Below, piece by piece: positions 45,000 to 47,981 of a stretch of 64,000 bases of DNA. The notes under the pieces are model-generated. The model ran no database searches and was not told the origin of the DNA. It was given only the letters and a program-made list of their open reading frames with translations. Both the position numbers and the translations under genes were made by a program. The stretch covers positions 434,001-498,000 of the forward strand of contig JAQGEQ010000175.1 in the NCBI GenBank assembly GCA_034620365.1, in the 5' to 3' direction. Within the stretch, counting starts at the first letter, position 1, and each line of letters begins with the position of its first letter. This DNA is from Pegea sp. RAD2-039 (Eukaryota; Chordata; Thaliacea; Salpida; Salpidae).

Positions 45000-45310
45000 A
45001 TGAACAGACGTTGTACTTCTTGCGGAATGAAGATAAATTATCGTATCAGATCATATCAGCGCGCGTATATACTCACTGAAGCATACGATTCACGTGTTAA
45101 CTTGAGATTTATGATAAAAGGAGAAAATAACTGGTGAGATATTAAAGTAAAAAGCTCAGATGATAGAATTACTAGTAGATTAAATAGTTTTTTATGTTTA
45201 TTTGATGCTATTTACAAAAAGTAAAAGTTGTTTAAAGGTTTGTGTTGAAAGTATTTTCTAAAACTTAAAAACATTTTTGCAGCAAAAGTATAAGAAATTT
45301 GATTAACTAA
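45000..45310 (+). CDS. Possible upstream mini-ORF with CxxC, overlapping the URM1-like start
   Basis: ATG 45000 opens a frame containing MNRRCTSCGMKINYR. A strong donor (GTGAGA) follows 45133 and a good acceptor is at 45281-45282. The spliced frame is 53 codons and ends in TAA at 45308-45310, whose last base is the A of the next gene's ATG (TAATG). If this transcript exists, it would be an upstream ORF touching the URM1-like start. If the acceptor is used by a spliced leader instead, the mini-ORF is not in the mature mRNA. No homology was recognised. Confidence 0.28.
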
Positions 45311-45585
45311 TGATGCCACTAAAAGTTAAATTAGAAGTTCAAAGGTTACCAATTAAAAATCAAAAAGAAAACAGGACTTTAGATTTGTACGATGATGGTG
45401 AGGAATGGACAATTGGAAGATTATTAAAACACATCCAAAGGAATTATTTCGATTTTTCTAGTGATCCAGTTGGAGAAAAATTCTTACAAAAGATATATGT
45501 TTGGGTGTGTGGGATCGATTATAAACTTCTTGGTGAACAGAGTTATAAGATCAAAGATGGAGATTCAATTTTCATGATTATTTGA
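45310..45585 (+). CDS. URM1-like beta-grasp protein A, no C-terminal Gly-Gly
   Basis: An uninterrupted 91-residue frame. Its second half aligns without gaps to ubiquitin-related modifier 1: EEWTIGRLLKHI corresponds to the EPWDIRNLLIWI region, and then IYVWVCGIDYKLLGEQSYKI and KDGDSIFMII correspond to [20 protein letters not shown] and QDQDSVLFIS. Canonical URM1 (about 101 residues) continues with a short segment ending in Gly-Gly, which is adenylated and thiocarboxylated for tRNA 2-thiolation and protein urmylation. Here the stop comes right after the last strand. The N-terminal FGGG..LLF block is also absent. An acceptor-like AG lies at 45281-45282. The start could be the second ATG, one codon later. 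Confidence 0.75.
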   Translation: MMPLKVKLEVQRLPIKNQKENRTLDLYDDGEEWTIGRLLKHIQRNYFDFSSDPVGEKFLQKIYVWVCGIDYKLLGEQSYKIKDGDSIFMII

Positions 45586-47308
45586 TTTGGACCTTATTAA
45601 ATTTTAAACTTCTTTTTATGCATCAGTTTGTTATGGTTATGTGATTTACTTAACACAATGATATCCGAGTTTTTATGTTTTCTGAATAAACAGTTTGTTG
45701 TATTTAGTTCATTTAATTATAACTAATTAGAAAAGAGTTTATATTAGTTGATTAGTTTAACTAGCAAAGATGATGTAAATTTGATATTTTTCAAGTAAAA
45801 CTCAGTTAAAAGAATATTTTAAAACTAAAGCTTTCATTATCTTACCTTTTGTTTTAATCGCTTAATCCTATAAACTTTCATTATTCAGATAAATTTAATG
45901 AGTCACCATAAAGCACAGTGACAAGTATTTGAAAGTGACAATGTGAACTGAAAATTCTGAAGATTTGTTAGACAGTAAGAGCTAATGAAATTGAAGATTT
46001 AAGATCCTAACCACAAATGTTGGATACCAGCCAATGAGATTATGAAATAGCATTTGATAGTTACTCAAACTAGTTGTAGATAAGATTTTAAACAAATATC
46101 GGTTTAGTTGACGTGACTTGAGCTTTTTCGGTTTAAATGTTAAAAAACGATAAATTGTAATTGAAAGTTTCTATTATAAGTTGAAATAAAGATTATTAAA
46201 TTGAATGATTCAATTTGAAAGTTATATTAAGGCTTGAAAAACTGTTGAATAAATTTGAGAAATAAGTATTTTTTAATTACATTTTTAAACCTTATTTCAA
46301 AAATAAACCTTTATAAGTTTATTATTTGATTTTTTTTATCTAACTAGATGGAGATAGTTTGATTATTAGATAGTTTCTGAGTTTTTTCGAAGAATTCAAT
46401 TATAATAAATTTATTTTCTTTTAGTATGAAGTCTTTTGAACAAATTTTTTCGAATGACGATTACTTACATCAAAACAATTCAAAAACTTAAAAAAAAAAA
46501 CTTATCAATCTTCAAAAGATTATATCTAGAAAATACTCAACTGGTATAAGAGGTAGAAATTGATTCATAAGTTTAATGAGAAGTTGTAGAAATATTTTGT
46601 ATACTACTACAAGGAAAAATGTAAGTTGCTTAATTGTAGATTACTAAAAAATAGGTCTCAAAAGCTTTCAGCCAATTAGAAGTAAGCTATATGTAAACTA
46701 GATGATTAATCTAAGAGATTAAAAGATCTAAATAGAAGTGAATAACAAAAAAGGTTTGTGAAAATCACATCAAACAAAAGGTTTTTTTTTTATTTAGTTG
46801 ATGTTGTCTAACTGATTATTTTTATTTTTCGTTTTATCAACAAAGAAGTTGTATTGAATATTAAAAATGTTTTTCAACTTTCGCTAACTCAGTTTATAAA
46901 AGTATTTATTTCAGAAAATACTTCATAATATTAAAGAATACTTATTAATTATTCATTTATTTGTATCTACAAAAACAATTTTGCTCATTTTAAACAGTTT
47001 AATTCAATTTACCTTATTTCTATTTCAGATGTAACATACGTCTTTTACAGTAATTTTTCTTCAAATCAATTACCAATAATATCAATTATCTAAAAATAGT
47101 AAAATTGTATCACATAATGCCACCATTATTTTTTTAATATCATGTGGTTGTGAGATACGTCGTCACTTTAAAAGATCTTTTTTTATGATATCAAAATCTT
47201 GATGATAGTTCTTACATTTACGTCTTTAAAAAAATATAAAGTCAGAAAAAGAAATTTGATAAGATATAATCTTCGATATGAAAACTTATCTCTACGTTAG
47301 GTCGCTAG
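45586..47308. other. Spacer between the two URM1-like genes
   Basis: A+T-rich; no third copy was seen in any frame. The last ~150 bp becomes less A+T-rich before the second gene. Confidence 0.45.
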
Positions 47309-47316
47309 TGACGTCA
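47309..47316. promoter_or_regulatory. CRE/ATF palindrome
   Basis: A perfect TGACGTCA, 417 bp upstream of the second URM1-like ATG and in a low-A+T patch (about 47290-47350). It parallels the site upstream of the first copy; role inferred. Confidence 0.5.
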
Positions 47317-47732
47317 ACACATCGCGGGTTATCATGCACTTTCAGTACGTAGAACACTTTCTTTATATGCTTCTTGCTTAGATTCAAATACCTCATTTAG
47401 TTTTTACAAAAGCATTGAACAGGCAGCAAGTAAGCTACTGGTTTCAGGATTAGTCAGTTTTGTTATTTAGAGTAGCAGAACCTCGTTTAAGTCGATTCGA
47501 CTGATAGTAAAGATTAGTTTATTAGATTTTAGTACAGGAAACATCTACATAGTATTGAACAGTTGTTTAATTATCCTAGGCGTAAGAATTTATGCTTGAT
47601 CATGTGATATATATGACCAGCAGCTTATTAGTAACCTAATTATTCGATCTTATTTCAATTATTTTACCTTTTTCATTTATAGACTAGTTTGTTGTGTGTT
47701 TTAGAATTAACAAATATAAAAGGTATAATAGA

Positions 47733-47981
47733 ATGGAAATAAAACTGCAAAACTTACATTCAAAATCTTCTGATAATAATAAGTCTATTGAGCTTGAAGG
47801 TCAATGGAATCTCTTACAACTTCTACAATCTAAAGGATACTTGGTCAAAAAAGATAATTGCATGATTAAGCCTGGAGTCTTCATCTGGATAAATGATGTC
47901 GATTATAGGAACATAGGAGGATTGGATTATGAACTAAAAAGTAATGACAATATTACTGTGTTATCAGTTCTGAATATTTAG
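47733..47981 (+). CDS. URM1-like beta-grasp protein B, no C-terminal Gly-Gly
   Basis: A single-exon frame of 82 residues. The C-terminal half is clearly URM1-like: IKPGVFIWINDVDYRNIGGL and DYELKSNDNITVLSVLNI match [19 protein letters not shown] and DYQLQDQDSVLFISTLHGG. It reaches the length of the URM1 tail but ends in Leu-Asn-Ile, not Gly-Gly. The N-terminal half is short (MEIKLQNLHSK..IELEGQWNLLQLL) and lacks the FGGG block. It is nearer canonical URM1 than copy A in the PGV/INDxD region. I chose ATG 47733 because the frame upstream is not family-like. An acceptor-like AG lies at 47681-47682. Confidence 0.78.
   Translation: MEIKLQNLHSKSSDNNKSIELEGQWNLLQLLQSKGYLVKKDNCMIKPGVFIWINDVDYRNIGGLDYELKSNDNITVLSVLNI

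Follow-up and report, generated by a model that had tools for sequence, protein, structure and literature searches.

As a rule, URM1 is viewed as one gene whose product has the Gly-Gly tail as its handle. In the window analysed here, a stretch of 64,000 nucleotides of contig C258 from Pegea sp. RAD2-039 (genome 105.7 Mb, 387 contigs), two neighbouring open frames on the same strand resemble URM1 and end without this tail. The locus raises the question whether these frames are URM1 paralogues kept for another purpose, relics of duplicated copies, members of another family, or parts of larger genes.

Identification of the two frames

The two frames lie in a window with a GC content of about 0.2 to 0.35 (2 kb steps) and are listed in Table 1 with their surroundings. 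Coordinates, strand and C-terminal endings (FMII and SVLNI) were the same on re-reading as in the initial annotation. In the genome, COX1 was not found, whereas contig C27 carries an 18S-like rRNA gene, and the best PDB match of a guanidino kinase is an arginine kinase (4rf6, presumably from a sea anemone). The 18S-like gene, this kinase and the Frizzled-type domain of the window point to an animal.

Table 1. Features of the window and related loci; positions refer to the window unless a contig or locus is named
Feature	Position	Strand	Remark
Short-chain dehydrogenase (adh_short), two exons	1828-2526	+	
Proline dehydrogenase exon	15662-15949	-	
Possible N-terminal part of proline dehydrogenase	17865-18293	-	guess from the sequence, without Pfam support
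Open frame in a GC-richer patch	20219-20626	+	no Pfam match; by its motif presumably the C-terminal end of a LINE-type retrotransposon protein
Longest open frame of the window, 581 aa	31997-33742	-	serine-rich, no Pfam match at E 0.1
TTTTTGCAG, 3′ splice-site-like	45274..45282	+	presumed 5′ UTR of protein 1, 36 bases before ATG
URM1-like protein 1, 91 aa	45310..45585	+	ends DSIFMII, then TGA; without C-terminal Gly-Gly
AATAAA, possible poly(A) signal, protein 1 gene	45685..45690	+	consensus match only
TTTATAG, weaker 3′ splice-site-like	47676..47682	+	upstream of protein 2
URM1-like protein 2, 82 aa	47733..47981	+	ends TVLSVLNI, then TAG; without C-terminal Gly-Gly
AATAAA, possible poly(A) signal, protein 2 gene	48147..48152	+	consensus match only
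Frizzled-type cysteine-rich domain exon	59889-60182	+	Pfam Fz above cut-off; perhaps part of a receptor tyrosine kinase (guess)
Canonical URM1	C83:501047-501346		single open frame, 100 residues from ATG, ends STLHGG
MOCS2A-like frame	L022 1371-1857	-	ends PPISGG; named from sequence

Both proteins scored above the curated cut-off (21.8 bits) of the Pfam family Urm1 (PF09138), protein 1 with 24.9 bits (E 2.6e-5) and protein 2 with 35.2 bits (E 1.7e-8), which makes them members of this sequence family, and for either protein Urm1 was the sole Pfam family above its own cut-off. NCBIfam cut-offs were reached neither by the two proteins nor by the canonical URM1 of the genome, these models being built for prokaryotes. 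The top PDB match was 1xo3 in both cases (E 0.0044, a weak match, for protein 1; E 8.5e-6 for protein 2). This entry is named RIKEN cDNA 2900073H19 in the PDB and we take it to be mouse URM1. A comparison by hhalign with four canonical Urm1s (the URM1 of the same genome and three PDB sequences) gave 96.3% over 85 columns for protein 1 and 96.5% over 39 columns for protein 2, the profile consisting of these four sequences only. Applied to 2379 open segments in 84 kb, i.e. the window and 20 kb flanks, the four-Urm1 profile had only two clear matches, protein 1 (25.4 bits) and protein 2 (31.5 bits), the next best segment reaching 6.6 bits. The highest score among 10,000 shuffled versions of both proteins was 14.8 bits. 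The Urm1 likeness of both proteins exceeds chance, and three kinds of profile comparison (Pfam, hhalign and the four-Urm1 profile) bear out the resemblance that had been noted. The statement that only the last two thirds of URM1 are matched needs correction for protein 1, which is aligned at positions 14-90 of the 96 in the Pfam profile and covers most of Urm1; protein 2 is aligned at positions 38-93. Protein 1 is the weaker case; it was not listed at E 0.001 by the whole-genome Urm1 family search. From the profile matches, both proteins probably possess the beta-grasp (ubiquitin) fold.

The missing tail and the URM1 pathway

In protein 1 the stop codon falls where the last Urm1 strand should end, while in protein 2 Ser-Val-Leu-Asn-Ile takes the place of Ser-Thr-Leu-His-Gly-Gly in Urm1. 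Neither protein has the C-terminal Gly-Gly of a functional URM1, just as the initial annotation had read the two ends. The idea that a downstream exon restores it was rejected within 4 kb of either gene, since the plus strand has no Gly-Gly-stop codon run (GGN-GGN-stop) in the interval that starts 400 bases ahead of either stop codon and extends 4 kb beyond it. According to a study on Uba4 and Urm1 (PMC7527816), the Gly-Gly of Urm1 sits within a groove of Uba4, ATP is required for stable Uba4-Urm1 complexes, and Urm1 with a changed last Gly does not trigger ATP hydrolysis by Uba4. Because adenylation needs the C-terminus of Urm1 (PMC7527816), neither protein should, by the known chemistry, be adenylated or thiocarboxylated, carry sulfur or be conjugated. 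The absent tail and this chemistry support the earlier proposal that the two are neither sulfur carriers nor modifiers.

A canonical URM1 ending in Gly-Gly, which had been named as something to look for, was found on another contig (121.5 bits against Pfam Urm1). The genome also harbors a MOCS3-like protein that combines a ThiF with a rhodanese domain, a CTU2 gene and a CTU1-like protein; the name of the last relies on its sequence and a single Pfam domain. Since the canonical URM1 and the MOCS3-, CTU1- and CTU2-like genes, i.e. all main genes of the pathway, are present, the tail-less pair is extra to the URM1 pathway. Whole-genome searches with the Urm1 family, the ThiS family and each protein, in which the best candidates were scored, revealed no further URM1-like gene beyond these three, with the reservation that very divergent or intron-split copies may escape such searches, because the Urm1 family search had already passed over protein 1 and only the best candidates were scored. 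A weak match on contig C57 (E 0.118) was rejected as a URM1 copy; it had no Urm1 profile score, and the region around it is presumably ETS-gene-like. The ThiS family search recovered the MOCS2A-like locus, at which a MOCS2B-like frame in another phase overlaps the end of the MOCS2A-like frame (both names from sequence). Overlapping MOCS2 frames are known in other animals.

It is conceivable that the tail-less proteins serve as decoys or brakes, occupying MOCS3, CTU1-CTU2 or an urmylation target in an unactivated state and thereby tuning tRNA thiolation or urmylation. The presence of the pathway genes together with a canonical URM1 would suit such a role, as would the Pro-Gly and Ile-Asn-Asp that protein 2 retains from the RPG....INDADW stretch of Urm1. 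On the other hand, of the 29 positions that are fixed in the four canonical Urm1s, 21 in protein 1 and 17 in protein 2 are changed or missing. Moreover, given that stable binding between Uba4 and Urm1 depends on ATP and that the groove of Uba4 accommodates the Gly-Gly (PMC7527816), a copy without the tail should be a poor competitor. The case for a simple MOCS3 decoy appears weak, and we regard decoys or brakes in general as an unlikely explanation.

Genes or relics

The protein identity to the canonical URM1 is 34% for protein 1 and 37% for protein 2. At codon positions 1/2/3, the identities are 0.45/0.59/0.47 and 0.51/0.62/0.42, respectively, with the second position highest in both proteins, although the underlying alignment was made from the proteins and itself favours positions 1 and 2. 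After shuffling, the third positions gave means of 0.31 (protein 1) and 0.30 (protein 2), and the observed level was reached in 5 and 58 of 5000 shuffles. Between proteins 1 and 2, the third positions were identical at 0.385 compared to 0.304 after shuffling, a level reached in 342 of 5000 shuffles. Because third positions exceed the shuffled level, the divergence is old but not fully saturated.

A disrupted frame, as it characterizes a URM1 pseudogene, was found in neither case; both frames are open from ATG to stop. The two might nevertheless be decaying copies, what is left of duplicates of URM1 after selection on them ceased, with frames that have stayed open by luck. Their low codon-usage scores (0.113 for protein 1, 0.043 for protein 2) would agree with decay and lie below the range of the seven training segments (0.179 to 0.292). 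They are above 102 and 94 of 106 other open segments of at least 60 codons, some of which may be real exons, and equalled or surpassed by 4 and 12. By contrast, two frames that are both open at such low protein identity to URM1 speak against decay. In a neutral-decay simulation without indels (20,000 runs per setting, 78 and 85 codons), the frame was still open at 0.25 substitutions per site in 727 (78 codons) and 475 runs (85 codons), i.e. 2.4-3.6%, at 0.5 in 154 and 90 runs, and at 1.0, where the mean nucleotide identity was approximately 0.46, in 57 and 27 runs (0.1-0.3%). Furthermore, L39, D73, Y83, D89 and I91 are retained in both proteins. We consider decaying copies quite improbable, and the simulation speaks for the retention of the two genes that the initial annotation had suggested.

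The surroundings of the frames were inspected for signals. The splice-site-like TTTTTGCAG lies in the presumed leader of protein 1 and is followed by an in-frame TAA (45304-45306), one codon upstream of the ATG; the canonical URM1 has TTTTGCAG 47 nt ahead of its ATG. The chance of encountering TTTNCAG in 60 nt is 3.6% for each. Upstream of protein 2, the weaker TTTATAG is followed by an in-frame TAG (47685-47687), 15 codons upstream of the ATG. Possible poly(A) signals were detected for both genes, while the same scan found no AATAAA within 300 bases after the canonical URM1. Taken together, the codon-position identities, the simulation, the codon usage and the splice-acceptor-like sites favour the reading that both are translated genes.

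A different origin would be another beta-grasp family of the ThiS/MoaD type that resembles Urm1 without descending from a URM1 duplicate. Protein 2 has a weak ThiS match of 15.3 bits, below the cut-off of 22.5, and both proteins weakly match an archaeal MoaD model (14.8 and 13.7 bits, cut-off 49.5). Protein 1 is not listed for ThiS/MoaD (PF02597), and neither protein reaches the cut-off of that family. The assignment to Urm1 as sole Pfam family and the common top PDB match 1xo3 argue against this origin, and so does the MOCS2A-like locus, which reached at most 3.2 bits on the Urm1 profile, indicating that this profile does not pick up sulfur carriers indiscriminately. We hold this origin to be very improbable. 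Least probable are incomplete frames, in which an unseen exon, a frame error or editing supplies Gly-Gly or each frame is an exon of a larger protein. In their favour, GT dinucleotides occur close to the end of either frame, the final ones at 45542 and 47967, and the frame of protein 2 is open for another 15 codons ahead of its ATG. Against them speaks the lack of GGN-GGN-stop on the plus strand over the 4 kb that follow each gene, although this search would miss a Gly-Gly interrupted by an intron or one with a processed extension behind it. The Urm1 likeness beyond the last GT (well beyond it in protein 1, for two residues in protein 2), the end of the canonical URM1 within its single exon and the in-frame stops ahead of both ATGs speak against them as well.

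Origin of the pair and comparison with known systems

Of the 29 residues that the four canonical Urm1s have in common, 8 are present in protein 1 and 12 in protein 2, so that neither carries the set of fixed residues of a functional URM1 as far as four sequences define it. The N-terminal Gly-Gly (G11, G12) and the last Gly (G100) are absent from both. The two proteins, which are mutually about 26% identical, have a deletion near the N-terminus in common as well as Trp in place of L68 and Tyr in place of W74, two positions that are otherwise fixed. In a six-row tree the pair was joined at 84/91 (unstarred, long branches), and an alternative topology that unites protein 2 with the canonical URM1 was not rejected (p-AU 0.093). 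The initial annotation had assumed two independent losses of Gly-Gly side by side. Because of the common deletion, the two identical replacements and the weak grouping, a single duplicated lineage fits better and would be the simpler reading, even though the data are not conclusive on this point. A recent tandem duplication was rejected, as no direct DNA repeat of at least 20 bases links the two genes; a duplication, if there was one, must therefore be old.

The explanation that we prefer, and to which we give an even chance, is that the frames are old tandem URM1 paralogues which were kept as proteins, abandoned sulfur and conjugation chemistry and now likely act as non-conjugated ubiquitin-fold proteins binding a partner. 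One extra copy of URM1 would have given rise to the two paralogues, which may still encode small stand-alone proteins on the beta-grasp scaffold of Urm1. Along the way, they would have lost the C-terminal tail that serves E1 adenylation and sulfur transfer, together with most residues fixed in canonical Urm1. Both proteins would most likely bind a partner through their surface in a non-conjugated form, while sulfur transfer and urmylation would be left to the canonical URM1. The more specific proposal that they represent a retained subfamily of animal URM1 paralogues which shed this chemistry and acts as a pair of non-covalent ubiquitin-fold partners is more tentative and has, in our view, somewhat less than an even chance. 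Should tail-less paralogues indeed be kept beside a canonical URM1, the URM1 fold would be usable without Gly-Gly chemistry, and the pair would be a natural separation of the surface functions of URM1 from sulfur transfer. It would also call for caution when URM1 domains are counted as sulfur carriers in genome annotation. In the titles and opening parts of abstracts of the open-access papers listed on URM1 paralogues, URM1 copies and Gly-Gly loss, tail-less URM1 paralogues were not reported, which is weak evidence that they have not previously appeared in print.

Relatives were also sought outside animals with an alignment of the three proteins. In prokaryote genomes, the pattern occurred at 343 stretches, of which two bacterial ones (21-24 residues) passed tblastn with E 4e-7 among the candidates. 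On the Urm1 profile they reached 11.0 and 10.0 bits (E 0.0096 and 0.019 among 383 segments), and in our judgement they are short motif matches. The scans of viral contigs revealed none.

Compared to URM1, the pair has in common the match to PF09138 above the cut-off, a similar size (82 and 91 amino acids versus 100) and the D, Y, D and I of the final strands. What separates it from URM1, apart from the low identity to the genome's own copy, is the lack of the Thr-Leu-His-Gly-Gly tail and of the N-terminal F-x-G-G, and a Tyr instead of the Trp in Asp-x-Asp-Trp. The ThiS/MoaD/MOCS2A sulfur carriers are stand-alone beta-grasp proteins of the same size class and need a C-terminal Gly-Gly. The pair matches them only weakly and below threshold, and it lacks the Gly-Gly in which the MOCS2A-like frame of the same genome terminates. 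Another parallel may be the non-conjugated ubiquitin-like proteins, which, according to a review (PMC1949818), arose several times in eukaryotes. Like them, the pair would have lost conjugation and would use the beta-grasp fold in other roles. The same review names adapters within multi-domain proteins such as TBCB, E1 enzymes and PI3K; unlike those adapters, the two proteins described here stand alone and are nearest to URM1.
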